A stretch of DNA of 64,000 nucleotides from Allocoleopsis franciscana PCC 7113 (GTDB lineage: Bacteria; Cyanobacteriota; Cyanobacteriia; Cyanobacteriales; Coleofasciculaceae). The DNA is taken from contig NC_019738.1 in NCBI RefSeq assembly GCF_000317515.1, positions 161,501 to 225,500 of the forward strand, read 5' to 3'. Shown here piece after piece: positions 7,022 to 54,277 of this stretch; the first letter of the stretch is position 1, and each line of letters opens with the position of its first letter. The notes under the pieces were generated by a model that worked only from the letters and a program-made list of their open reading frames with translations, did not search any database and was not told the DNA's origin. The position numbers and the translations under genes are program-made.

Positions 7022-7771
7022 CTATGACCCAACTTTAACATTCCAGGCTTTTGTCTCCTGTTCTGTGTAAAACTCTGCCCTCACTCGCTGACAAAATCGT
7101 TGTAAATTATCGAGTTTTAGCGCTTGCTCTTTGAGAAGGGATTGCGAATTATCATAGATTAATCGTGAGAGCAAGCCATAGGCAGCCGCATCAAGAGTGG
7201 TTGCTTTTGCACCCATGAAAAACGGCTTATCTCCCAAGAAATCAGACAAAGCGGACAAATCACGCTTTCCAATTTCATAGATTTCCGACTCAGAATGACG
7301 ACCCATACCATGACCCCATAATTGTTTTAAGATTTGGTCATGTAACTCTTCAAGAATCTGGTTTTGAATAGATTCTGGAAATTCCTTTAATATTAATTCT
7401 TCTAGAATCGTTCTATAGGATAACCAGTTATCTTCTATTTTATAGATATAATAAATCGCCACCCAATAAAGATTTTCTTCTATTAGCCGTAGGAATGCTA
7501 AGGAAACAGCTTTTTCTTCCTTGCTTAAGTTTCCATTTGGCTCAACTTCCAAGGTTTTATTCAGATAATCAATAATTAAATTCGAGTCGCCAATAAGTTT
7601 ACCGTTGTATCGAATAAATGGGATCTTCCCTTTAGGCGCATCTTGAAACGTTAGTTCCCTGCTCACTTCATAGGGCAATTTAGCAATCCGAAAATATGTA
7701 TGTAGTTTGATACAAAAAGGACTTAAATCGGGTAATCCCCAACAGGGTGAAGATTGGTAAAGCTCAATCAT
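7022..7771 (-). CDS. Glutathione S-transferase family protein (metaxin-like)
   Basis: The 249-residue protein has an N-terminal thioredoxin-like domain (about residues 1-77) with the SPFCIKLHTYFRIAKLPYEV segment and the cis-proline region GKIPFIRYNGKLIGDSNLII, then an all-helical GST C-terminal domain. The spacing resembles the metaxin/Tom37-like GST branch rather than classic dehydroascorbate-type enzymes. Presumed cytosolic; it may conjugate or bind glutathione adducts, substrate unknown. It is convergent with xfp. The stop lies at 7022, and the start is the ATG at 7771. Confidence 0.85.
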   Translation of the reverse strand: MIELYQSSPCWGLPDLSPFCIKLHTYFRIAKLPYEVSRELTFQDAPKGKIPFIRYNGKLIGDSNLIIDYLNKTLEVEPNGNLSKEEKAVSLAFLRLIEENLYWVAIYYIYKIEDNWLSYRTILEELILKEFPESIQNQILEELHDQILKQLWGHGMGRHSESEIYEIGKRDLSALSDFLGDKPFFMGAKATTLDAAAYGLLSRLIYDNSQSLLKEQALKLDNLQRFCQRVRAEFYTEQETKAWNVKVGS

Positions 7772-8354
7772 GGTTTATCCTTCCGATTGCTAAATCTCAA
7801 AAGGTGATGAAGACTTATTATCAGATATCGTGGCTCCGAAGCTTATTTATCAATAAAATCTTAAGGATTTCGTTCTGTTTTGAAAATGGCTAACCAACAC
7901 ATATTTGCCATTTTTTAATATTTTTAGGATAAAGAATTAATACATATAAAAGCTTATTGATATAAGTTGAAAGAGCATTGAATCTCTTGCTCCAACATGC
8001 CTTATCCTCTTACTCTCTGTCGCCAGAGAGATTAATACCCCAAAATTTTCATGCTATAAAAAATACTCTCTACCTATAGAAATTCAGTGAAAAAGTTTGA
8101 GTTAGCCCACTCTAAGAGCGGGTGACACTATCTATTGCTTTGAATCCAAGGATCGGAATGATGGGGCGGCTTACTGGCTGTCCAGATAGGATGTCACTGA
8201 AATTTATTGTTGACTAACTACGCACTTGAAATGCGCTGCATTAGGCTGGTGCTGTTCGCGAAATCGGGGTGTAATTCGTAGGCGATCGCAAAGTTCAATT
8301 CAAGCGCAACCCCATTGAACCAATGATGTTGATCAAACGTTTAGGAATAAAATC
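7772..8354. other. Intergenic region between GST gene and sugar transporter
   Basis: About 580 bases with no supported gene. It holds AT-rich DNA, one GCGATCGC site at 8283 and a small hairpin (CTCTCTG / CAGAGAG, near 8016-8030). It should contain divergent promoters for the GST and transporter genes, but no boxes could be fixed. Confidence 0.35.
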
Positions 8355-8372
8355 ATGTTTACTCAAAGGTAG
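8355..8372 (+). other. Probable original start of the MFS gene, ended by TAG at codon 6
   Basis: An ATG at 8355, preceded by AGGA about eight bases upstream, is in frame with the transporter and reads M-F-T-Q-R followed by TAG (8370-8372). The same frame then continues DIAAKPKTSYLILIAGAA, which has the form of the cytosolic tail and first membrane helix of sugar porters. So the natural start is separated from the rest by one nonsense codon. A sequencing error is possible. Confidence 0.7.
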
Positions 8373-8441
8373 GATATTGCTGCTAAACCCAAGACTTCTT
8401 ATCTGATTCTAATTGCTGGTGCCGCCGCCCTTGGTGGCTTT

Positions 8442-9767
8442 TTGTTCGGGTTTGATACGGCAGTAATCAATGGTGCCGTCGGAGCACTACAAAAAGCCTA
8501 TAACGCGACTAGTGGGATGACGGGTTTTGCCGTGTCTTCTGCATTGTTGGGTTCTGCACTAGGAGCCTTCTTTGCTGGCCCCCTCGCTGATCGCCAAGGA
8601 CGCATCAAGACCATGGCGATGGCATCTGTGTTGTTTACCCTCAGTGCCATTGGTTCGGGTATGGCGTTTGGCATCTGGGATTTCATCTTCTGGCGTGCCT
8701 TGGGTGGAATTGCAGTGGGTATGGCTAGCGTGATTGCACCGGCTTATATTGCAGAGGTGGCTCCCGCTCACCTACGAGGAAGGCTGGGTTCGCTGCAACA
8801 AATGGCGATTGTCGTGGGTATCTTCATTGCCTTACTGAGTGATTACTTTATCGCGTTGGGAGCAGGCGGGTCAGCCGAAGCACCGTTTTGGTTTGGGGTG
8901 TCTGCTTGGCGCTGGATGTTTTGGTCAGAAATTCCGCCAGCCATCCTCTACGGGGTAGCGGCTTTGATGATTCCCGAATCGCCTCGATATCTGGTTGCTC
9001 AGGGTCAAGACCGGAAAGCGGCGGATGTTCTCGCCAAGGTTGTGGGGGGTGATGTACTCTCCAAAGTTGAGGAAATCCGCCAGACGGTTAACATGGAGCG
9101 CAAACCTCAATTCTCTGACCTCCTAAGCCGACGGGGTGGTCTATTGCCGATTGTCTGGGTGGGAATGGGTCTATCTATCCTCCAGCAGTTCGTGGGTATT
9201 AACGTTATCTTTTATTACAGCAGTATTTTGTGGCAGGCTGTCGGATTCTCAGAACGGGATTCCCTATTAATTACGGTAATCACAGGCATTGTTAATATTG
9301 TGACCACCTTTATTGCGATCGCTACCGTAGACAAGTTTGGTCGCAAGCCTCTCCTGCTGTTAGGGTCAATTGGGATGACCGTTACCTTAGGAACACTGGC
9401 GCTTGTTTTTGGCAACGCGGCGATCGACCCTGCCACTGGTAATCCAAGCCTGACGGGTTCTGCTGGCATTATTGCCCTTCTCGCCGCTAACCTCTATGTC
9501 GTCTTCTTCGGCTTCTCTTGGGGGCCGATTGTTTGGGTGTTGTTAGGGGAAATATTTAACAATAAAATTCGAGCGGCTGCACTTTCACTTGCTGCCTCGA
9601 TTCAGTGGATTGCTAATTTTATCGTCTCCACGACCTTTCCTCCCTTGCTTAACACCTTCGGCCTCGGTTCTGCCTATGGTATTTATACGATCGCAGCCGC
9701 CATCTCCATCTTTTTCGTGGCACTTTTTATTAAGGAAACCAAAGGTAAGGAACTAGAAGAAATGTAA
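8442..9767 (+). CDS. Sugar porter family MFS transporter (5' end interrupted)
   Basis: The 441-residue frame has the MFS sugar-porter signatures: GPLADRQGRIK after helix 2, ALGGIAVGMASVIAPAYIAE, PESPRYLVAQGQ near the end of the sixth helix, GINVIFYYSS in helix 7 and the terminal KETKGKELEEM. Such proteins import hexoses by proton symport at the plasma membrane. The TTG at 8442 lies inside the first membrane helix; codons from 8373 onward are clearly part of the protein but follow an in-frame TAG. Unless translation begins at a non-canonical codon (for example ATT at 8376 or CTG at 8394), helix 1 is lost. It lies between xfp and ackA and may feed hexose into that pathway (inference). Confidence 0.88.
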   Translation: MFGFDTAVINGAVGALQKAYNATSGMTGFAVSSALLGSALGAFFAGPLADRQGRIKTMAMASVLFTLSAIGSGMAFGIWDFIFWRALGGIAVGMASVIAPAYIAEVAPAHLRGRLGSLQQMAIVVGIFIALLSDYFIALGAGGSAEAPFWFGVSAWRWMFWSEIPPAILYGVAALMIPESPRYLVAQGQDRKAADVLAKVVGGDVLSKVEEIRQTVNMERKPQFSDLLSRRGGLLPIVWVGMGLSILQQFVGINVIFYYSSILWQAVGFSERDSLLITVITGIVNIVTTFIAIATVDKFGRKPLLLLGSIGMTVTLGTLALVFGNAAIDPATGNPSLTGSAGIIALLAANLYVVFFGFSWGPIVWVLLGEIFNNKIRAAALSLAASIQWIANFIVSTTFPPLLNTFGLGSAYGIYTIAAAISIFFVALFIKETKGKELEEM

Positions 9768-33841: not shown

Positions 33842-36079
33842 TTAATGATGAGAAGAGGTAGATTCGTAAAGTTCATCGAGCATTGCTTCTATATCTGGGG
33901 GTAAAGAAGTAAAATGAATGCAAAAATTTCCATTGTCCGTCTTTTTTTCGATAACTTTTGCATAGATATCTTCAGTGGCTGAGTCTGGGGTATTTGAAGT
34001 TAATAAATTGAATTTAATATTACTTAAAGCAACGACAGGAGATTGAGAACTGACTTCAGCCCCTTTAGCCGATAGTTTGACTAAATTGCCTCTTAACATA
34101 ACAGCACTAACATGCTTCCCATCGAGAATAGCGTATTGAATCGGAATAGCTTCAGCCAATGGAAAGAATTCTTCTTCTTGTTGTTTCAAAAATAGATTGT
34201 ATTCTCCACTAATCCCGACAATATCATAGATGGTGACGGGCTTTTTAACACCTTTGGTATAGACCTCCTTTTGCCCCTCCACTTTAACAATTGAGCCAGC
34301 TTCTTTTAAGGTTAATTCTGATATCAGTACTTGACCTCCTACTGTATAAGATTCAATGCGGTAAGTTAGGTTAACTTGGCTACCTACAACACCGTACTTG
34401 GTACGTTTCTCTGAGCCAATATTCCCCACGACTACATCACCCGTATTGATTCCAATACCCATTTCTAGGTGTGGCAAGTCTAATTGCTTCATTTTTTCAT
34501 TAACTGAATCCATGGCTAGCTGCATGGCAATTCCACAGGCGATCGCTCTTTGAGCATCATCCTCTCTCGCCGTAGGAGCACCAAACAAAACTAAAATTCC
34601 ATCCCCCATAAACTCATCAATAGTTCCCTGGTACTGAGTAATCACATCTGCCATGTACCCTAAGTAAAGGTTGAGAACTTTAATCACCTCTTCAGGAGAT
34701 AATCGTTCCGATAGAGCTGTGAATCCTCTTAAATCCGACGTCAAAATTGTAATTTTCCGTCTCTCGCCACCGAGTTTTAATCCTTCAGGATGTTCTAGTA
34801 AATTAGCAACCACTTCATCCGTCAAATAGCGCCCAAACGTCTTACGAATTCCTCTAGCCGTTTGAGCAATATAAGCCATAATGACCAAGGCAGAACCCGA
34901 CAAAGCTAAAACGGGTGGAATAACCGGTATCCACCATCCCCCCACAAAAGCTATATAGGTGCTGCCGACCAAAGTTCCGCCAGCTAGAAGTGGCCCCAAT
35001 GCGCGATGGATGGACAAATTGGTAACCCCACCGGTGTATCGTCCCTGCCAACTTAAAACACCACCTACGGTAGCCCAAACCAAAACCCACAGCCACTCTA
35101 AGGGTTCAGGCCAACTCTTGAGCAGAGAACGACCTTCAACAGCGGCGCTGAGTACCTGACTGGTGATATTAGCATGAATTTCTACCCCAGCCATGCGCTC
35201 TGGGCTGCTGAGCAGAGTGCTACTGTAAGGGGTAAAGTATAAATCGGGGAAAGTCTCACTCACTCCACCAATTAAAATGATGCGATCGCGCCCCCAATCC
35301 TTCGGCACCTTATCGTTGAGAATATCTCTCATCGGGACAATGGTGAAGCGATTGCTCGGTCCCCGGTAATTCAACAATACCTGGTAGCCTCCATCATCTG
35401 CTCGGATATATCCCCCATCATGGGATTGAAAGCGCTCAAAAGTTGTTTTACCCAACCGCCAATTGGTTGTTTCTGGAATTTCTTGGATCTGGATGCCTTC
35501 CTTCTCCAGATACAGCAACGCCAAATACATACCCAAACTGGGCATCATTTCCCCTTGTGGAGTCTGTACAAATAACAAATCACGCCGTATTTTGTTATCA
35601 GCATCCACGATCAAATCATTAGAACCCACTTGTCCTTTCGCTTTGAGTACGGGGGGAGGTGCCACTGCCTCTCGGCTGCTATTTCCTACTACCTTTTGAA
35701 TTCCAATGAGATTCGGGGTAGATTTAAACACCTGAACTAATTTCTTATGACCCGGTTCTACAGGTAAATCGCGATAAATGTCCAACCCGATAGCTCTCGG
35801 CTGCATCGCTTTGAGTTTTTCTAATAATCGCGCATACACTTCATCGGGAATAATGGGTTGTCCAATGGCTCGGATATCGGCTTCATCAATACCGACAATC
35901 ACAATTCGCTCGTCTTTTGATTCAAGGGGACGCAGCCGAAAATACTGATCATAAGCAGTCCACTCCCAAGGCTGTAAAAGGCCCAGCATTCGCAGGAGAA
36001 TCACTAATCCTGCCGTCGTGGGAGCCGTAATCCACACCCCGCGCCAATTCCAAAGCAACCGCTTGAATCGTTCTTTCAT
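33842..36079 (-). CDS. CHASE2-domain adenylate cyclase with C-terminal PilZ-like region
   Basis: The 745-residue protein has an N-terminal membrane helix, an extracytoplasmic CHASE2 domain (about 45-320), three membrane helices (about 325-425) and a class III cyclase domain (about 445-620). Both metal aspartates are present (LTSDLRGF and DEFMGDGILVLFGAP), as are the adenine-specifying Lys in EKRTKYGVVG and the transition-state Asn/Arg (SQVNLTYRIES), so it should be an active cAMP-forming enzyme. The last 110 residues look PilZ-like (inference). CHASE2 is thought to sense an unknown external signal. It lies upstream of the cyclic-nucleotide channel gene and downstream of a DUF928 gene. Confidence 0.93.
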   Translation of the reverse strand: MKERFKRLLWNWRGVWITAPTTAGLVILLRMLGLLQPWEWTAYDQYFRLRPLESKDERIVIVGIDEADIRAIGQPIIPDEVYARLLEKLKAMQPRAIGLDIYRDLPVEPGHKKLVQVFKSTPNLIGIQKVVGNSSREAVAPPPVLKAKGQVGSNDLIVDADNKIRRDLLFVQTPQGEMMPSLGMYLALLYLEKEGIQIQEIPETTNWRLGKTTFERFQSHDGGYIRADDGGYQVLLNYRGPSNRFTIVPMRDILNDKVPKDWGRDRIILIGGVSETFPDLYFTPYSSTLLSSPERMAGVEIHANITSQVLSAAVEGRSLLKSWPEPLEWLWVLVWATVGGVLSWQGRYTGGVTNLSIHRALGPLLAGGTLVGSTYIAFVGGWWIPVIPPVLALSGSALVIMAYIAQTARGIRKTFGRYLTDEVVANLLEHPEGLKLGGERRKITILTSDLRGFTALSERLSPEEVIKVLNLYLGYMADVITQYQGTIDEFMGDGILVLFGAPTAREDDAQRAIACGIAMQLAMDSVNEKMKQLDLPHLEMGIGINTGDVVVGNIGSEKRTKYGVVGSQVNLTYRIESYTVGGQVLISELTLKEAGSIVKVEGQKEVYTKGVKKPVTIYDIVGISGEYNLFLKQQEEEFFPLAEAIPIQYAILDGKHVSAVMLRGNLVKLSAKGAEVSSQSPVVALSNIKFNLLTSNTPDSATEDIYAKVIEKKTDNGNFCIHFTSLPPDIEAMLDELYESTSSHH

Positions 36080-40443: not shown

Positions 40444-42537
40444 ATGGAAACCACACTAGCGGGTCATTATCAGGTTGTCGAACCCTTGGGGATGGGGGGA
40501 TTTGGTCAAACCTTTCTGGCTAAAGACATGCATTTACCTGGGAACCCCTTGTGTGTCGTTAAGCAACTCAAACCTAGAGATAGCGATTCCGCAACCTTGG
40601 CTATAGCGCAACGCTTATTTGAGCGTGAGGCGGAAATGTTATACCGATTAGGCGAACATGACCAAATTCCTCGCCTTTTAGCTCACTTTGAACAAGAGGG
40701 AAAGTTTTATTTAGTCCAAGATTATATAGAAGGTCAAACGTTAGAAAAAGAACTGGCTCACCGCAAAACGTTAAGCGAAGCCTCCGTCATGCGGATTTTG
40801 CAAGATATCTTGCAAGTATTAACCTTTGTCCATCAACAAAATGTCATTCATCGCGATATTAAACCCGCTAATTTAATTCGACGTAATAGAGATGGCAAGA
40901 TTGTTCTGATTGATTTTGGCGCGGTTAAACAAGTTCGGCACCAGGCGCGTTATACTCCCCAACAAACCAGCCTCACCATTCCCATTGGTTCTCCTGGCTA
41001 TATGCCTAGCGAACAACAAGCTTCTAATCCCCACTTTAGTAGTGATATTTATGCTGTAGGGATGGTTTGTCTGCAATCTTTGACCGGATTATCTCCTAGA
41101 AAACTACCGCAAGATGCCAACACGGGTGAGTTGGGTTGTAAGTTAGTCAGCGATCGCGCTTATATTAGCCCGGATTTAGCCGCTATTTTAGATAAAATGG
41201 TGCGCTATGACTATCGCCAACGTTACAAAAATGCCAGCGAAGCACTGGAAGCCTTAGAACAATTGTTTGATCGTACAGAACCCGATTCGATTGAATCGTC
41301 AACTCTAATTGCTCCAACCTGTCCACCTCCATCCTCAAGCGGCGAGGAACTAGAAACTCAAGGGATTCCCCTGCCTTTTCAATCTCTCATTACCGATAAA
41401 ACCGAAGGATTTGTCGGACGAAATTATGTGTTTGAGGCGATTGAAGAGTTCTTGCAGCATGAAGCTTGCGGCTATTTTATTATTGAAGCTGACCCCGGTG
41501 TGGGAAAAAGTGCAATCCTTGCCGAGTACGTCAAGCGGACACGATGTGTGGCACACTTTAATGTGCGATCGCAAGGCATCAATCGGGCTGAAGAATTCTT
41601 GAAATGCGTCTGCACTCAACTGATTGAACGCTACAAACTCCCCTATTCGCTCCCCTTAACCCCTGAACATACTCGCGATGGCAACTTCTTAGCACGGCTG
41701 TTGAATGAAATTAGCAGGCTAGACACGAGTGTAGACGATACCTATGCCACGACAACCCTAAGTACAGGAACAAAATCGACTTCTAAATTAGTGATTGTCG
41801 TTGATGCCTTAGATGAAGTGGATTTGAGTAGCCAGACGCCCGGTGCAAATGTCCTGTATCTCCCCGCCTCTTTACCCCATAACGTTTACTTTATCCTAAC
41901 CAAACGCATGACACCCGTCCCCTTGGTGGTGAACCACCATCGTGTGTTTGAGTTAATGCAGTATGCGGCAGAGAGTTTACAAGATGCCAAAACCTATATT
42001 CGATGCCGTGTTCAACAAAGTGAGGCTTTACAGATATGGATTGGCAATCAGGAATTGACGGTTGAGGCTTTTGTGACCATCTTAGCTGAGAAAAGCGATC
42101 ACAATTTCATGTACTTGCGCTATGTATTGCCAGCCATTGAAAGCGGTACTTACCAAGATTTAAGCATCGAGAATTTACCGGAAGGATTGGAGCAATATTA
42201 CTACCAACATTGGCAAAATATGGGCATGACAGCCAAACCCCTGCCCCGAACCAAGATTAAGATTGTCTATGTTTTAGCAGAAGCCCGAAAACCCGTCTCC
42301 CGTCAGTTAATTTCCGAATTTTCCGGGGAGGATGCCTTGACAGTGCAAGAAGTATTGGATGAATGGCAGCAGTTTTTGCGCGAACAACGCCTTGATGGAG
42401 AGACTGGGTACAGCATCTATCACACGAGTTTCCAGGATTTTCTGCATTGCCAAGATATCGTACAGGCGGCTGGGATCACGATACAGGGAATTAATGCGAT
42501 GATTGCCGATAACTTAGCACAAGAATTGGGGCTGTAA
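40444..42537 (+). CDS. Ser/Thr protein kinase fused to STAND/NACHT-like NTPase
   Basis: The protein of 697 residues (ATG 40444; GTG 40384 possible) has a Hanks kinase domain (about 8-275) with GMGGFGQTF, CVVKQLK, HRDIKPANLI, IDFGAVKQ and SPGYMPSEQ, followed by a linker and an NTPase domain (about 315-520) with Walker A EADPGVGKSAILAEY and Walker B KLVIVVDALDEVD, then a helical STAND-type extension that ends with YSIYHTSFQDFLHCQDI. In such proteins the NTPase switch is usually followed in the same polypeptide by sensor repeats; here the WD40 repeats are in the next gene, in a different frame. Probably cytosolic; signal and substrates unknown. Confidence 0.92.
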   Translation: METTLAGHYQVVEPLGMGGFGQTFLAKDMHLPGNPLCVVKQLKPRDSDSATLAIAQRLFEREAEMLYRLGEHDQIPRLLAHFEQEGKFYLVQDYIEGQTLEKELAHRKTLSEASVMRILQDILQVLTFVHQQNVIHRDIKPANLIRRNRDGKIVLIDFGAVKQVRHQARYTPQQTSLTIPIGSPGYMPSEQQASNPHFSSDIYAVGMVCLQSLTGLSPRKLPQDANTGELGCKLVSDRAYISPDLAAILDKMVRYDYRQRYKNASEALEALEQLFDRTEPDSIESSTLIAPTCPPPSSSGEELETQGIPLPFQSLITDKTEGFVGRNYVFEAIEEFLQHEACGYFIIEADPGVGKSAILAEYVKRTRCVAHFNVRSQGINRAEEFLKCVCTQLIERYKLPYSLPLTPEHTRDGNFLARLLNEISRLDTSVDDTYATTTLSTGTKSTSKLVIVVDALDEVDLSSQTPGANVLYLPASLPHNVYFILTKRMTPVPLVVNHHRVFELMQYAAESLQDAKTYIRCRVQQSEALQIWIGNQELTVEAFVTILAEKSDHNFMYLRYVLPAIESGTYQDLSIENLPEGLEQYYYQHWQNMGMTAKPLPRTKIKIVYVLAEARKPVSRQLISEFSGEDALTVQEVLDEWQQFLREQRLDGETGYSIYHTSFQDFLHCQDIVQAAGITIQGINAMIADNLAQELGL

Positions 42538-42551
42538 ATTTAAAATTGCCA

Positions 42552-44918
42552 ATGGGTGAATTAGGCGATCGCTTAGCTAAAATGTCACCAGAAAGGCGAC
42601 AGTACGCCTTGGAAACTTTACCGAGTCACTTGGCGAAGGCGTCTCAGTTTGAGCGATTGCACCGCTTACTCACAGATTTCGATTTTATTGAAGCTAAGCT
42701 TTTGGCTTTGGGAGTGCAACTTTTAATTGAGGATTATGACTTAGCCACCCCTTCAGTTTCTCCCAACATCCCGGACGACGGAAAACAAAAAGACGAATAT
42801 CATCCCTCTATTTCTCCAAACGGACAACGACATAAGCATCATCCTCCTTTTGTTAAGGGATATCTAACCCATCAAGCAGAGACTAAACATTGCCAATTAG
42901 AAGCGGATGCGGATCGAACAAGGATAAAGGGAAATCAAAAGGCTAAAGCCGACACCTTAAAGTTAATTCAAGGAGCATTAAGACTCTCAGCCCACATTCT
43001 CGCCAAGGACAAAACTCAACTGGCAGGGCAATTACTGGGGCGTTTGCTGTCGTTTGAAGTCCCAGAAATTCAAACTCTGTTACAGCAGGCTAAACCCCAA
43101 CAAACCCCCTGGCTACGTCCTTTAACTTCTAGCTTGATGCCTCCGGGCGGCGCATTGTTACGCACTCTCACAGGGCATACTGAGGCAGTACAAGCTGTTG
43201 CCGTGACACCCGATAGTCGGTGGGTGATTTCTGGGTCGAATGACACAACCATTAAAGTCTGGAATTTAGCAACCGGAGAGGAACTCTCAACCCTTACCGG
43301 ACATACTAAAGCTGTCAAAGCCGTTGCCGTGACTCCAGATGGGCAACTCCTGATTTCCGGTTCCAGTGATAAAACGCTTAAAGTTTGGGATTTGACAACA
43401 GGAGAAGAACGGTTCACCCTGACAGGGCATCTCGGTAAAATACAAGCGATCGCAGTCACTCCCGATAGCCAACGGGTGATTTCCGCTGCTGATGACACCA
43501 CGCTCAAAATATGGAATTTGTCAACAGGGGAGGAAGTATTTGCCCTCAGTGGTCATCTCGACTCTATCCAAGCGATCGCACTGACTCCTGATAGCAAGCG
43601 AGTGATTTCCGGTTCTGATGACACCACATTGAAAATCTGGCATCTCAAAGCCAAAAAAAAGGAACGTTCGACCCTGATTGCTCATTCCGAAGCGATACAA
43701 ACAATCGCGGTTTCACCGAATGGTAAGTGGATGATTTCCGGTTCTGATGACACCACATTGAAAATCTGGCATCTGAAAACGGCGAGAGAACTGTTCACCC
43801 TAACCGGTCATACTCAATCAGTACGTGCGATCGCTGTAACCCCTGATGGCAAACGTCTGATTTCTGGGTCTTACGATAAGACACTCAAAGTCTGGAACCT
43901 GAAAACGGGAGAGGAACTGTTCACACTGATCGGTCATACTGGCAGGGTTAACGCCGTGGCGGCAATCCCTAACGGTACAGGAGTGGTTTCCGGGGCAAAT
44001 GACAAGACGATTAAAGTTTGGAATTTAGACATTAAACAGAAAGAACAGTTCACACTTGTCGGCTATATGGGCGGTGTGAAGGCGATCGCCACAACACAAA
44101 AGTGGGTGATTTCCGGTTCCGATGACACGACGCTTAAAGTCTGGGACTGGGTAACGGGGAAAGAACACTTCACCCTGACAGGACATACCAGTAAAATTCA
44201 TGCGATCGCAGCTACGGAAAATTGGATTATTTCTGGGTCAGAAGATAGCACGCTCATCCTTTGGAATCTGGAAACGAGAGAGAAATTTTTTACCTTTACC
44301 GGTCATAACGGTAGGGTTAATGCGGTAGACGTCACACCGGATGGTCAGTGGGTGATTTCTGGTTCTTATGATAAGACCCTTAAAGTTTGGAATTTAGAAA
44401 CAGGAGAGGAACTCTTTACCCTCACGGGACATAAGAGAGGAATCGATGCGATCGCCGTAACTCCTGATGGTCAGCGCCTGATTTCCGGTTCCTATGACAA
44501 TACATTTAAAATTTGGGATTTGAACAGTCGGCGAGAACTGTTTACCCTCATCGGTCATAGGAGTGGAGTCTGTTCTCTGGCAGTCACGGCTGATGGCAAT
44601 TTCCTGATTTCTGGTTCTTATGATAAAACGATTAAAGTCTGGGATTTGAAAAAGAGAAGGCAATTATTCACCCTCATCGGTCATACTGAGCCGGTCTTAA
44701 CGGTAGTGGTAACGCCAGATGGTAAGCGAGTGCTTTCAGGTTCTTGGGATAAGACATTTAAAGTTTGGGATTTGGAAAGCCGACAGGTTATTGCTACTTT
44801 CATCGGAGATGGTGCATTGTTGTCTTGTGCCGTTGCACCGGATGGGGTAACAATTGTGGCGGGTGAGGCGTCCGGACGAGTGCATTTTCTGCGCCTTGAA
44901 GAATATCGCGAGTCCTGA
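42552..44918 (+). CDS. WD40 repeat protein (14 blades)
   Basis: The 788-residue protein (ATG 42552; TTG 42546 possible) has an N-terminal helical part (about 1-190) with YALETLPSHLAKASQFERLH and LLTDFDFIEAKLLALGVQLL, which in related kinase/NACHT-WD40 proteins links the NTPase to the repeats. From about residue 200 there are 14 consecutive WD40 repeats (typical unit TLTGHT...ISGSYDKTLKVWNL), enough for two seven-bladed propellers; blades 8 and 9 are slightly short and the last is degenerate. It likely serves as the binding/sensor half of the preceding kinase-NTPase. Several blades are nearly identical at DNA level. Confidence 0.93.
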   Translation: MGELGDRLAKMSPERRQYALETLPSHLAKASQFERLHRLLTDFDFIEAKLLALGVQLLIEDYDLATPSVSPNIPDDGKQKDEYHPSISPNGQRHKHHPPFVKGYLTHQAETKHCQLEADADRTRIKGNQKAKADTLKLIQGALRLSAHILAKDKTQLAGQLLGRLLSFEVPEIQTLLQQAKPQQTPWLRPLTSSLMPPGGALLRTLTGHTEAVQAVAVTPDSRWVISGSNDTTIKVWNLATGEELSTLTGHTKAVKAVAVTPDGQLLISGSSDKTLKVWDLTTGEERFTLTGHLGKIQAIAVTPDSQRVISAADDTTLKIWNLSTGEEVFALSGHLDSIQAIALTPDSKRVISGSDDTTLKIWHLKAKKKERSTLIAHSEAIQTIAVSPNGKWMISGSDDTTLKIWHLKTARELFTLTGHTQSVRAIAVTPDGKRLISGSYDKTLKVWNLKTGEELFTLIGHTGRVNAVAAIPNGTGVVSGANDKTIKVWNLDIKQKEQFTLVGYMGGVKAIATTQKWVISGSDDTTLKVWDWVTGKEHFTLTGHTSKIHAIAATENWIISGSEDSTLILWNLETREKFFTFTGHNGRVNAVDVTPDGQWVISGSYDKTLKVWNLETGEELFTLTGHKRGIDAIAVTPDGQRLISGSYDNTFKIWDLNSRRELFTLIGHRSGVCSLAVTADGNFLISGSYDKTIKVWDLKKRRQLFTLIGHTEPVLTVVVTPDGKRVLSGSWDKTFKVWDLESRQVIATFIGDGALLSCAVAPDGVTIVAGEASGRVHFLRLEEYRES

Positions 44919-46328: not shown

Positions 46329-46543
46329 AAATTGAGTCCCACAGAAAAGCCAAAAGTATTACCGAAACAGCGATCACCCAGCGATACCGTTGCCTAACCG
46401 GGCGACCTGCTACAATGGCATCTTCGCTTTTCTCTCGTGAGTGACATTTAGCGAGATGAAGGCGAAGTGGCATAACCCACGCATACGTTCTGCATGAGCC
46501 TATGCCAAGATTGGAAAATGAACTATGCGAGCGCGTCACCCCC

Positions 46544-48493
46544 ATGTTAGGCAAGCTACTTGACAGGCGTTACGAAGTCACTCAAGTACTCGGTGCTGGT
46601 GGATTTGGTAGAACCTACCTGGCACAGGATACCAGGCGTCCTGGTAACCCAACTTGTGTTGTCAAGCAACTGAAGCCTCTGAGCAGCGATCCAAATTTTT
46701 TGGAAACAGCGCGACGTTTATTCAACAGCGAAGCTGAAACTCTGGAACAGCTAGGACATCACGACCAGATTCCTCGCCTTTTAGCTTATTTTGAGGAAGA
46801 CCAAGAGTTCTACTTAGTGCAAGAGTTTATTGAAGGTCATACGCTTTCTCAAGAGCTGCAACCAGGGCAGCGGTGGGAAGAAAGCCGAGTTATGACGCTG
46901 CTCGAAGAAGTCTTGGGTATTTTAGACTTTGTCCACTCTCACGGCGTTATTCATCGCGATATCAAACCCGACAATCTGATCCGGCGCAACTCAGACCATA
47001 AATTAGTCTTAGTGGATTTTGGTGCGGTCAAACAAATCCGTACTCAGTTTGCGGCGACTCAGGGCAGAGCCAGCAACACTGTTGCCATCGGGACTCCTGG
47101 CTATATGGCAAGTGAACAGGCTCTAGGCCAGCCACGCCCTACTAGTGATATTTATGCATTAGGAATTATTGCGATCCAGGCTCTTACAGGTCTGATGCCC
47201 ATTAATTTCCAAGAAGACCTCAGTACAGGCGAAATCCTCTGGCAGCACTTAGTGCCGATCAGCCGAGGGTTGGCAACGATCTTATCAAAGATGGTGCGCT
47301 ATCACTTCAAAGACCGTTACCAGTCAGCGGCAGAAGCGTTAGAATCACTGCGCCTGCTGAACAATACTTACTCACCCCCTACTCCTTACCCTGCCGTCCC
47401 CAGGACTCCATCGGCAAATGATGCCCCTCCGTTCGGACAAAGGGAACAGGTATCGCCGCCACCTTATCCACCCGCCTCAATCTCAGAACGCCAAACTTTG
47501 GCAGCTAGTCCAGGAGTACCTCCCAGACAACCTGTTGCTACTCCAGTAAGTACTCCTAGAGGTGGTTCTTCTGATAAAATGCCCCTTCTGGTTGGCATCG
47601 GGATGGCGATCGCCGTCGGTGCAGTTGGCATGGCTTTCGCGCTGCGTGATGGTTCCTTGTCATCCAACTATAGTGGTAATGGGACTCAGGTGGCAGATAC
47701 ATCCCCAGGACGTTGCACAGTAGCTAGTAGGGGATTAAACATCCGCTCCGGACCCAAAGGCTCGGTCGTTGCCACGGTTAAGCAAGGTACCTCTCTTTCT
47801 CTCACTGGCGCAGAACAAAATGGCTGGGTGGAAATTAGCGCACCCAAGAAAGGATGGGTTTTTAACGATAGCCAATACATCAAATGTACCTCAGCGAATC
47901 AGACACCCATCGAGACGGCTCAAGTCAATCCAAAGCCGATTGAAACGACCGTGAGTCCAAAACCTGTGGAGACGACAGTAACTCAGAAACCAATTGAGAC
48001 TCCCCAGCCGAAACCCTCAACGACCCCGCCAAAACCTGTTGATAACAGTTCCAAGACGTTAGACACAGCAGCGGATAAGTATGAGAATGGAGACTTGCAA
48101 GGCGCGATCGCTGACGCTCGGAAAGTCCTCCCAGGCAGTGAGGCTTATAAGGAAGCTCAAGCCAAAATTCAAAAGTGGCAGGACGATTGGAAAGCGGCTG
48201 AAGCCAAATATAACGAACTGCAAAAAGCTGTTGATGAAGGTGACTGGAAGAAGGTACTCATTGTAACAACTGATCCAAAGTTTTTTGAGCAACGCTATTG
48301 GCGAGACAAGTTTACTCAACTCATTGAGGAAGCTAAAAAAAGAAAAGCCGAAGCTGACGCCGAAGCGAACAAAAACCCAACCACTCCCCCTGAAGAACCC
48401 CAACAACAGAAGCCACTACCTGATGCCAAGTCATCAGGGAATGTTTCACCCACTCCCGCAGGGGAAACTCAGGACAACCCGACGAATCAATAA
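46544..48493 (+). CDS. Ser/Thr protein kinase with SH3-type sensor domain
   Basis: The protein of 649 residues (MLGKLLDRRY at 46544; ATG 46502 possible) has a kinase domain (about 8-275; GAGGFGRTY, CVVKQLK, HRDIKPDNLI, VDFGAVKQI, GTPGYMASEQ), a Pro-rich linker, one membrane helix (about 347-367, LLVGIGMAIAVGAVGMAFAL), and an exported bacterial SH3 domain (about 385-450; CTVASRGLNIRSGPKGSVVA, GWVFNDSQYI). A Lys/Pro/Thr-rich tail with repeated KPIET/KPVET units follows, then a helical region. The topology suggests sensing of the cell wall. Confidence 0.93.
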   Translation: MLGKLLDRRYEVTQVLGAGGFGRTYLAQDTRRPGNPTCVVKQLKPLSSDPNFLETARRLFNSEAETLEQLGHHDQIPRLLAYFEEDQEFYLVQEFIEGHTLSQELQPGQRWEESRVMTLLEEVLGILDFVHSHGVIHRDIKPDNLIRRNSDHKLVLVDFGAVKQIRTQFAATQGRASNTVAIGTPGYMASEQALGQPRPTSDIYALGIIAIQALTGLMPINFQEDLSTGEILWQHLVPISRGLATILSKMVRYHFKDRYQSAAEALESLRLLNNTYSPPTPYPAVPRTPSANDAPPFGQREQVSPPPYPPASISERQTLAASPGVPPRQPVATPVSTPRGGSSDKMPLLVGIGMAIAVGAVGMAFALRDGSLSSNYSGNGTQVADTSPGRCTVASRGLNIRSGPKGSVVATVKQGTSLSLTGAEQNGWVEISAPKKGWVFNDSQYIKCTSANQTPIETAQVNPKPIETTVSPKPVETTVTQKPIETPQPKPSTTPPKPVDNSSKTLDTAADKYENGDLQGAIADARKVLPGSEAYKEAQAKIQKWQDDWKAAEAKYNELQKAVDEGDWKKVLIVTTDPKFFEQRYWRDKFTQLIEEAKKRKAEADAEANKNPTTPPEEPQQQKPLPDAKSSGNVSPTPAGETQDNPTNQ

Positions 48494-51218: not shown

Positions 51219-52688
51219 GTGAGCGTTTATTCTAACCTCACCGGTCAAGACATTGTACTGCGATTGTTATCAGTGCTGCTTCTGATTGCAATCAATGCCT
51301 TTTTTGTCACGGCTGAGTTTGCCATGGTTTCCGTGCGGCGATCGCGCATCAATCAGCTAGCAGATGCGGGTGATGTTCAGGCGAAAACCGTTCAATCCTT
51401 ACAACGCAGCATCGAGCGTTTACTCTCGACCACTCAGATCGGAATTACGCTTTCCAGTTTGGCATTAGGCTGGATTGGGGAGAGTACTATGGCAGTTCTG
51501 GTAGCGGCGGGACTTAGGCAATTGCCCTTGCCACCATCAGTTAGCCAGTTTATGGCTCATTCTCTAGCCATTCCCATCACTTTTTTTCTGATTGCCTATC
51601 TGCAAATTGTTCTCGGCGAACTCTGCCCCAAATCCGTTGCTCTGCTTTACTCAGAACAGTTGGCACGGTTTCTCGGTCCTCCTAGCCTCGCGATCGCCCG
51701 TTTTTTTAATCCCTTCATCTGGATTTTAAACCAATCAACTCGCTTGCTCCTGCGGCTTGTGGGTATCCAATATACCGGTCAAGGCTGGTATAACCGGGTG
51801 ACTCCAGAAGAGTTACAACTGATTATTACCACCGAACGCGAGTCTACCGGACTAGAGGCGGAAGAACGCGAACTCCTGAAAAATGTGTTTGAGTTTGGTG
51901 ATGTGGAGGCGGTGGAGGTGATGGTTCCCCGCACCAGCATTGCGGCTATTCCCAGTACGGCAACCTTCCAGACGTTGTTAGAGGAAATTGACCAAACGGG
52001 TCACTCGCGCTATCCAGTGATGGGCGAATCCCTGGATGACATTCAGGGAATTATTTACTTCAAAGAATTAGCCCAACCCCTCTCCCAAGGACAGCTTACG
52101 CCAGAAACACCCATTCTGCCCTGGATTCGTCCCGCTCGGTTTGTACCAGAATCAATTCCGCTTTCGGAACTCTTGCCCTTGATGCAGCGATCGCACCTGG
52201 TTATGGTGATGGTTGTGGATGAGTTCGGTGGTACAGCCGGGTTAGTCACCCTGAAAGACTTAATTGCTGAAATTATTGGTGACAACTCTGAACCCGAAAG
52301 TCCAGAGGAATTACCCGTACAAATTCTGGATGAACAGACTTTTCTGGTGCAAGCCCAAATGGATTTGGAAGAAGTCAACGAACTTTTGGATTTAAACTTA
52401 CCCTTAGCTGACGAATACCAAACCTTAGGAGGCTTTCTCCTCTACCAATTTCAAAAAATTCCCCTACAGGGTGAAACCCTCAATTATGACAATCTGGATC
52501 TAACTGTCGTTTCTGCGGAAGGTCCACGTGTACATCAAATTCGCATTAACCGTCTAGAGTCAACAACCACGCCCCAAGAAGAGATTTCCATCCCCGATAT
52601 GGTGATAGAAACGGACACAGCAGAGGAGATTCCAAAAGATGAGGCAACGCGGAATCTCGATGTAGATTCCTACAAAGACTCCGAATAG
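51219..52688 (+). CDS. CNNM/HlyC-CorC family membrane protein
   Basis: The 489-residue protein has an N-terminal DUF21/CNNM domain with about four hydrophobic segments (INAFFVTAEFAMVSVRRSRI, LVSLALGW-like region, ILVL segments), tandem CBS domains (about 215-345; VEVMVPRTSIAAIPSTATFQ, LVMVMVVDEFGGTAGLVTLK) and a C-terminal CorC_HlyC domain (about 360-440). Such proteins are linked to Mg2+/Co2+ efflux and often annotated hemolysin. It starts at GTG 51219. The stop overlaps the convergent kinase gene by 19 bases. A second, shorter member is at 58977. Confidence 0.92.
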   Translation: MSVYSNLTGQDIVLRLLSVLLLIAINAFFVTAEFAMVSVRRSRINQLADAGDVQAKTVQSLQRSIERLLSTTQIGITLSSLALGWIGESTMAVLVAAGLRQLPLPPSVSQFMAHSLAIPITFFLIAYLQIVLGELCPKSVALLYSEQLARFLGPPSLAIARFFNPFIWILNQSTRLLLRLVGIQYTGQGWYNRVTPEELQLIITTERESTGLEAEERELLKNVFEFGDVEAVEVMVPRTSIAAIPSTATFQTLLEEIDQTGHSRYPVMGESLDDIQGIIYFKELAQPLSQGQLTPETPILPWIRPARFVPESIPLSELLPLMQRSHLVMVMVVDEFGGTAGLVTLKDLIAEIIGDNSEPESPEELPVQILDEQTFLVQAQMDLEEVNELLDLNLPLADEYQTLGGFLLYQFQKIPLQGETLNYDNLDLTVVSAEGPRVHQIRINRLESTTTPQEEISIPDMVIETDTAEEIPKDEATRNLDVDSYKDSE

Positions 52689-54277
52689 CGGTCGTGCCAC
52701 TCCGATTTATCGAGAGAAAAAGCCCACCAGTAGGGCAGTTGATTGGGGGATTGTCCCTTACCCATCATTTGCAGCCCATCTAACGACAAAATGCCTTGAC
52801 TTTCTCCCAGTACCCAATGACCTGATGCCGCTTTTGAGGCAATACGCATGACCCAGTTTTCTGAAGTCGATTGTGTCGGTTGTGAGAGGACACGAAGTTT
52901 TCGTAGGGTTACCTTATTCGTCTGGGGATCAACATTTCCCTGAATCGCAATCCGATAAAGCCCCTTAAAATTAGAGGATTGGATACTCAACGTTCCACTC
53001 AATGAGTTACCGGACTCAGGCGTAACCGTCAGCATCGCTGCTTGATTGTCAAACTCGCCATACCAAATTTCCACTCTTGTCCCCATCTTAAAGAATGACC
53101 AGGAGTATGAATTTTGCAGTGAATCTTGCCCCATTCCGGACATTTGCTTTTGATCGGATGACAGCGTTCCTGAATTTCTTCCCAAATTCCACAACCCTGA
53201 ATAAGGTTCTGAGAGGACGCGTACTTCTCGCATTTGGATGGTCTGTGTTCTGTAGTCAAGATTACCCTGAATCCCAATCCGAGAAAGGCCATTAGGAGAA
53301 TGAACGGTTAAAATTCCACCAAACCAACTCCCTAAGTGGTAAGTAATCGTAAAATTTGCCAATTTATGGTCAAACTCGCCATACCAATTCCCAATCATGG
53401 GAGAGGTTAAGTCTTGAAGTACCTCCTCGGCAGATTGATATCGTGCTTTCACCTCAACCTTGAGCATCTTGTTCAACATCTGCCTGAGCTGCTTACTAAT
53501 AGCAGCACCTTGGGACTTGTCTTGCCATAACCAACGGGCTTCCTTCGGGTCGTAGAGGAGATGAGGACTCATGCCAGTCAATAGATGAATACAGGTCGCC
53601 CCTAAGCCATAAATATCACTGGCGGGATAAGCTTCGCCATAGGTTATCTGTTCGAGTGGGGCATAACCCTGAGTTCCGCAGTAAGTCTTTGGTATCACGA
53701 CTGTGCCACTCAAATATTTGGCTACACCGAAGTCGATCAGCACCAACTTCCCATCCTGCCTGCGGCGCATGATATTGTCTGGTTTAATATCCCGATGAAT
53801 GACACCCTGTTGATGGATAAACTTCAATACAGCTAAAAAGTCAAACAGCAATTCTCGAATTTTGAACTCATTAAATGTCCCGTGCTGTTCCAACTCTGTT
53901 AGCAATGTTTGCCCCTCAATAAACTCCTGTACTAAATACAGATCATCACCGTCCTTAAAATATGCCAATAGTGCAGGAACCTGTGGATGTTGACCTAACT
54001 GTTGCAGTCGCCTTGCTTCTTGCTCAAACAGTTGAGTTGCCTTCTCAATAGCTCCACTTCCTTTAATTTGTGGTGTAAATTGCTTAATGACGCAACGTTC
54101 ATTCAGCTTGTCTATATCTTCAGCCAGATAAGTTCTGCCAAATCCCCCACGACCCAGAGGCTGAATGGGATGATAGCGGTTTCGCAACAGCGCCAGTTTT
54201 GTCCCGCAACAGTGACAAAATTTGAAGCCATCTGGATTTAAGGGATTCTGGCAATCGGGATTAAGGCAGCAAGTCAT
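52670..54277 (-). CDS. Ser/Thr kinase with N-terminal zinc ribbon and duplicated C-terminal domain
   Basis: The 535-residue protein starts with a four-cysteine zinc ribbon (CLNPDCQN ... CHCCGTK, residues 4-26), followed by a Hanks kinase domain (about 34-290) with GRGGFGRTY, CVIKQFT, HRDIKPDNIM, IDFGVAKYL and GTQGYAPLEQ. The C-terminus has two repeats of about 110 residues, each starting WYGEFD (about residues 295 and 405) and including RIGIQGN/RIAIQGN and R-VRVLS/KLRVLS. I do not recognise this domain. No membrane helix is seen. The signal is unknown. Confidence 0.9.
   Translation of the reverse strand: MTCCLNPDCQNPLNPDGFKFCHCCGTKLALLRNRYHPIQPLGRGGFGRTYLAEDIDKLNERCVIKQFTPQIKGSGAIEKATQLFEQEARRLQQLGQHPQVPALLAYFKDGDDLYLVQEFIEGQTLLTELEQHGTFNEFKIRELLFDFLAVLKFIHQQGVIHRDIKPDNIMRRRQDGKLVLIDFGVAKYLSGTVVIPKTYCGTQGYAPLEQITYGEAYPASDIYGLGATCIHLLTGMSPHLLYDPKEARWLWQDKSQGAAISKQLRQMLNKMLKVEVKARYQSAEEVLQDLTSPMIGNWYGEFDHKLANFTITYHLGSWFGGILTVHSPNGLSRIGIQGNLDYRTQTIQMREVRVLSEPYSGLWNLGRNSGTLSSDQKQMSGMGQDSLQNSYSWSFFKMGTRVEIWYGEFDNQAAMLTVTPESGNSLSGTLSIQSSNFKGLYRIAIQGNVDPQTNKVTLRKLRVLSQPTQSTSENWVMRIASKAASGHWVLGESQGILSLDGLQMMGKGQSPNQLPYWWAFSLDKSEWHDRYSESL

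Follow-up and report, generated by a model that had tools for sequence, protein, structure and literature searches.

A gene for a kinase-headed STAND NTPase (gene A) and the arm-WD40 gene behind it (gene B) are divided at the same boundary in many bacteria. They probably encode a conserved split STAND receptor, in which the arm-sensor protein would act in trans on the effector-switch protein. The pair described here lies in the window, the whole 64,000-nucleotide stretch of Allocoleopsis franciscana PCC 7113 DNA that was analyzed.

Two adjacent genes encode a kinase-NTPase and an arm-WD40 protein

An earlier note, made from the sequence, had described a kinase-NTPase and a WD40 sensor in two adjacent genes, and the open reading frames (ORFs) and Pfam matches bear this out. 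The features are as follows.

40444-42537, plus strand: gene A, Hanks Ser/Thr kinase and STAND NTPase, 697 amino acids from ATG 40444
40468-41247, plus strand: kinase head of gene A, PF00069, catalytic motifs intact
41389-42534, plus strand: STAND switch of gene A, comprising nucleotide-binding domain (NBD), helical domain, and winged helix, from Pfam, model, and motifs
42535-42551, plus strand: junction, the TAA stop of gene A and a short spacer before the ATG of gene B, the frames of the two genes differing
42552-44918, plus strand: gene B, APAF1_C-type arm and WD40 sensor, 788 amino acids from ATG 42552
42552-43130, plus strand: helical arm of gene B, matched by Pfam APAF1_C, its model aligning to APAF-1 468-596
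43167-44915, plus strand: WD40 array of gene B, 14 repeats by eye

Gene A could also start at GTG 40384, giving 717 amino acids, but ATG 40444 is the more likely start because the closest kinase paralogue also begins METTLAGHYQ. The gene ends with TAA at 42535-42537. Pfam places a Pkinase domain (PF00069) at amino acids 29 to 288 (E 1.8e-36), and the VVKQLK, HRDIKPAN, and DFG motifs are all intact. This head is 71% identical to a kinase of the same genome that is fused to a different region, which suggests that it was recruited from a resident kinase family. The host genome (7.97 Mb in nine contigs) contains 74 Pkinase matches to Hanks kinases. The PADLOC PD-T4-6 models match the kinase part with an E value of 3.6e-101, in a genome that holds dozens of similar kinases.

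The NTPase part of gene A has intact GVGKS and DALDE motifs, with Walker A at 41488 and Walker B at 41788 in the NBD. Pfam matches NPHP3_N at amino acids 355 to 483 and AAA_lid_TANC1 at amino acids 530 to 607, and AAA_16 is matched as well. The Walker A motif, the DxxDE Walker B motif, the helical lid, and a winged helix, the last seen in the model, identify gene A as a STAND NTPase. Gene A has no Pfam match to NB-ARC (PF00931) at E 1e-3; a distant relative (L052) matches it weakly (E 5.8e-4).

Gene B begins at TTG 42546 or ATG 42552, 8 or 14 nt after the stop of gene A and in another frame, as had been noted, and no promoter- or terminator-like site was found between the two genes. The helical linker that the earlier note had seen ahead of the WD40 repeats is a significant match to APAF1_C, the Pfam family of the APAF-1 arm (PF17908; E 1.9e-8, 34.7 bits against a cut-off of 22.8). 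With WD40 directly after it, gene B belongs to the APAF1_C/WD40 modules. Of 29 family members tested, 21 match APAF1_C, as does gene B of the window. Pfam finds 12 WD40 stretches; the count of 14 repeats by eye agrees with the 14-blade sensor proposed before, and this number would be enough for two seven-bladed propellers. The repeats have a mean pairwise identity of 53%.

The arm contains an insertion of approximately 45 residues (about 42753-42880) that is modeled with low confidence, is common to the sibling genome G001, and is missing in most relatives. An origin of this insertion from a repeat was rejected, as it is present in a single copy in the genome. Elsewhere in the same genome, outside the window, fragments of a second NTPase (G000:C1:4517525-4517725, with a stop) and of a second linker (G000:C1:3361370-3361516) appear to be the remains of a lost copy.

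In a Pfam scan, the neighbors of the locus are housekeeping and signaling genes (tryptophan synthase, methyltransferase, histidine kinase), and no known defense gene was found among the ten neighboring genes scanned. This ordinary neighborhood is kept in the sibling genome. Two further Hanks kinases lie close by (window 46502-48493 and 52670-54277), and a CHASE2 sensor joined to an adenylate/guanylate cyclase is encoded at 33842-36079.

The split is conserved

Searching 57 genomes, namely the window's own and those of relatives, with the NTPase gave matches in 26. A scan of one genome per species yielded 80 named loci, and 20 further stretches were mapped. One layout holds across the mapped loci: one gene stops where the NTPase stops, and the next opens with the linker and runs on into WD40. 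We counted 104 distinct junctions from many genera, the window included, mostly from Cyanobacteria, with some from Chloroflexota and one from Actinomycetota. The two genes overlap in 77 of the 104 (34 by 8 nt and 33 by 4 nt, as ATGA or GTGA). Gaps at the others range from 0 to 341 nt, exceeding 80 nt at about 15 loci, and the junctions fall into frame-offset classes of 55, 41, and 8. None of the 104 is an NTPase-linker fusion, and a layout that recurs this often is not a chance arrangement. Fusions in the reverse direction do occur, with gene B running on into a second NTPase in L053, L146, and L147.

Profiles applied without regard to gene context gave a consistent picture. Of 339 genomes from the phylum, 44 were matched by the NTPase profile, and all strong matches sat in frames no longer than about 780 amino acids. 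The arm profile matched 35 of the 339, nearly always near the start of the frame. Noncyanobacterial members with both parts are also split (Anaerolineae L079 and L100; Phytohabitans L148), as is the sibling genome, where 115 nt separate the stop from the ATG. Comparison with the sibling gave dN/dS values of 0.06 for the NTPase, 0.17 for the kinase, 0.20 for the linker, and 0.145 for WD40; these low values indicate that both genes are maintained by purifying selection. The distances of A and B covary (r = 0.68 over 99 pairs; best of 2000 shuffles, 0.11), which could also be expected from shared descent alone.

A few NTPases are without a recognizable arm-WD40 neighbor: L035/L069 and L067/L070, both on short contigs, as well as L102, L112, and the truncated L133. 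In L112 (Lentzea), a gene 9 nt after the NTPase (7117-9141) has an arm-like start and neither WD40 nor any Pfam match; it is possibly a different sensor on the same scheme.

The earlier note had read the gene pair as a fission or frameshift that yields a two-part receptor, and had proposed a comparison with fused homologues. The halves of a STAND/WD40 receptor do lie in two neighboring genes, and a two-part receptor is most likely, but the proposed origin is not supported. The 8- to 14-nt spacing, the different frames, and the existence of single-chain NB-ARC/APAF1_C/WD40 proteins would fit a single-chain receptor that was recently broken in this genome by fission or frameshift, or that was misassembled. 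The probability of this is nevertheless close to nil, given the same boundary at all 104 junctions with their mixed offsets, the purifying selection on both genes, and the lack of any fused form of this NTPase among the 104 junctions or the 339 genomes. An assembly error or fresh lesion is ruled out because the split is conserved, also in the sibling, and both genes are maintained. It is very unlikely, too, that programmed frameshifting or translational coupling produces a fused A-B protein besides A alone. The short overlaps at most junctions are in its favor, but the offsets differ between loci and some spacers are long, so that no single slip would join A and B. Moreover, making two separate proteins by termination-reinitiation requires just such overlaps of 4 or 8 nt.

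The cut lies between switch and arm

A PDB sequence search with both profiles gave no useful match; we therefore compared folds. AlphaFold models had a mean pLDDT of 85 for the NTPase and 81 for the linker. The NTPase model ends in a winged helix, in agreement with the earlier observation that the first protein ends in a STAND region. In alignments by VIA-align, it superimposes on APAF-1 119-470 (3sfz; Z 16.9, rmsd 6.5, 317 residues aligned). The linker model continues on APAF-1 469-586 (1z6t; Z 9.2, rmsd 2.9, 117 aligned) and 468-596 (3sfz; Z 8.0, rmsd 3.1, 122 aligned), and its first four structural matches are all APAF-1 among the 72 chains re-aligned. The NTPase model also aligns to NLRC4, CED-4, and Avs3, and its best structural match is repressed MalT (8bob, Z 18.4). 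Since helical folds inflate Z, the arm is assigned from the Pfam match in combination with the order of the hits. According to these models, A and B tile APAF-1, with the cut at approximately residue 470, between switch and arm.

Heads, additional sensors, and a third gene

The earlier note had proposed a Hanks kinase driven by a STAND switch and a 14-blade sensor as a candidate signaling or defense module, but the kinase is not the defining part. The N-terminal heads of 111 distinct gene A NTPases form about 20 clusters unrelated to one another, and the kinase is one of these interchangeable heads, found in this sample only in the genus of the window. Named heads are HEPN_Swt1, TIR, DUF4062, EAD4, EAD10, NNH5, and HTH_26/31, and a further head is a weak transglutaminase-like match. 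HTH heads are present on 27 NTPases. In an abortive antiphage system, DUF4062 acts as a TIR-like NADase (PMC13174449). The NTPase tree calls for no fewer than 24 head changes and places the kinase pair together with two proteins bearing an unrelated head. The commonest head cluster (34 proteins of 245 to 400 amino acids, in L041, L044, L092, and 31 others) has no Pfam match and contains a glycine/alanine-rich hydrophobic stretch; it is perhaps a membrane-acting effector.

More than one arm-WD40 gene lies behind a single NTPase gene in L071, L105, L115, and L189 (2648-12343). In L100 (1-13076), three NTPase genes are followed by three arm-WD40 genes, and in L083 (7034-12055), two arm-WD40 units share a single 1673-amino-acid frame. 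In many loci, the arm-WD40 gene is followed downstream by gene C, which encodes a second NTPase that has no head (for example, L138 9316-10464, L141 9844-11007, L186 8819-9937, and L187 3155-4339, with about 20 more loci); the window locus is without it. Walker A is retained in gene C, but almost every copy has lost the glutamate of Walker B (DALDAID versus DALDEVD), whereas DxxDE is kept in 129 of 130 copies of gene A. From these motifs, gene C looks like an ATP-binding, hydrolysis-deficient partner.

A model for the pair and its alternatives

The arm of MalT keeps the nucleotide-binding domain closed and changes partners on activation, and a separately made arm-sensor fragment (336-806) binds the inducer roughly a thousandfold better than does the isolated sensor (PMC4381067). 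Taking this fragment as the counterpart of B, we propose by analogy a model of docking, closing, and release. A consists of an output head, here a kinase, and an ADP/ATP switch made of NBD, helical domain, and winged helix; B supplies the arm and WD40 sensor, which in single-chain relatives such as APAF-1 form one polypeptide with the switch. B may dock on A at the surface where switch and arm ordinarily meet, and at rest the arm-sensor would keep the switch closed, inhibiting it in trans. Binding of a trigger to the propellers would make the arm let go, and A would then exchange nucleotide and oligomerize, so that the clustered kinases become active. Judging from the heads of relatives, the trigger might come from phage or another invader, with growth arrest or death as the outcome. 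The separation would let several sensors serve one switch, as the tandem arm-WD40 genes suggest.

A broader claim, in which we have even confidence, is that the pairs belong to a widespread bacterial split apoptosome-like system. Here the switch, fused to an exchangeable effector, and the arm-WD40 sensor would be separate subunits by design; one switch could have several sensors, and many loci would add a further NTPase subunit, probably deficient in hydrolysis. Counting against the split-receptor model, a few close NTPases (L035, L067) on short contigs are without an arm-WD40 gene, no known defense genes lie beside the window locus, and the HTH-headed NTPases could point to transcriptional control.

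The pair probably has a role in defense or cell death, because the relatives carry heads such as DUF4062 and because heads are swapped, but this reading is weakened by the ordinary gene neighborhood and the many HTH heads. These same facts would suit a two-part regulator of normal physiology (development, stress, or transcription), as would the precedent of MalT, itself a STAND regulator (PMC4381067), and the abundance of Hanks kinases in the genome. We hold such a role to be rather unlikely, since the HEPN, TIR, DUF4062, and EAD heads and the frequency of head changes point to conflict systems, and the presence of the family is patchy. Less likely again is that B is mainly an antitoxin-like inhibitor in trans without a specific ligand, whose loss or cleavage frees A. 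Arm contacts do keep the STAND switch closed (PMC4381067) and the arm here is on B, and the A-B order with overlap resembles co-translated pairs. However, ligand binding is a better fit for a WD40 array of 14 repeats and for the loci in which one A has several B genes. Inhibition of this kind is compatible with the split receptor that we prefer.

STAND receptors (APAF-1, NLRs, plant R proteins, and Avs) are usually regarded as one-chain proteins, with the arm linking sensing to the switch. Where nature has made a conserved cut at the switch/arm boundary, this coupling can be tested in trans, by asking if A is locked or active on its own and if one sensor can replace another. The roughly 20 head types of the family also offer material for effector mining.

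Comparison with known systems

STAND receptors with swappable effectors are well known, as are the EAD and inactive-STAND themes described in passages of PMC7159879 and PMC8195603. The literature searched, which leaves out most subscription papers, does not describe any STAND NTPase with its arm and WD40 sensor in a conserved gene of their own. The ternary and inactive-STAND conflict systems of those two papers share the EAD4 or EAD10 heads of some relatives, and their inactive STANDs are comparable to the Walker-B-less gene C; an arm-WD40 gene beside a STAND gene is not described in these passages. The window locus does not belong to the MoxR-vWA ternary systems: a Pfam scan of its ten neighboring genes found no MoxR, vWA, or VMAP gene.

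The antiviral STANDs (Avs, bNACHT) follow the same tripartite effector-STAND-sensor logic, and NTPases of relatives match PADLOC Avs1b over profile residues 200 to 530. The sensor here is instead a separate WD40 gene, and the NCBIfam Avs1b score of 22 bits, against a cut-off of 1500, places the protein outside curated Avs. In MalT, the arm likewise couples sensor and switch, but in a single chain with a TPR sensor.

Read across A and B, the order of switch, winged helix, APAF1_C arm, and WD40 is that of APAF-1, the cell-death protein of the animal apoptosome, and other APAF1_C/WD40 receptors. The differences from APAF-1 are the two genes, an NTPase that matches NPHP3_N and the TANC lid rather than NB-ARC, and a kinase head in place of CARD. 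The earlier note had stated that single-chain kinase/NACHT-WD40 proteins are known. Five cyanobacterial single chains of 983 to 1407 amino acids (L179-L183) have the homologous arm directly before WD40, an architecture which implies that this arm and WD40 belong behind a STAND switch; their NTPase, however, is an NB-ARC of another clade, not that of gene A. On the arm tree, their arms lie on one side of a single branch (support 83, from few columns), which fits one old event, fission or fusion, in either direction.

The nearest published parallel is an APAF1_C/WD40 protein of Ulva that has no NTPase in its chain (PMC8891106). As in gene B, arm and WD40 are encoded apart from the NTPase. A separate NB-ARC partner was sought in Ulva and not found, nor was an adjacent NTPase partner, whereas here the NTPase is the neighboring gene. 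The A/B pairs are thus a bacterial precedent for stand-alone APAF1_C/WD40 proteins such as that of Ulva.
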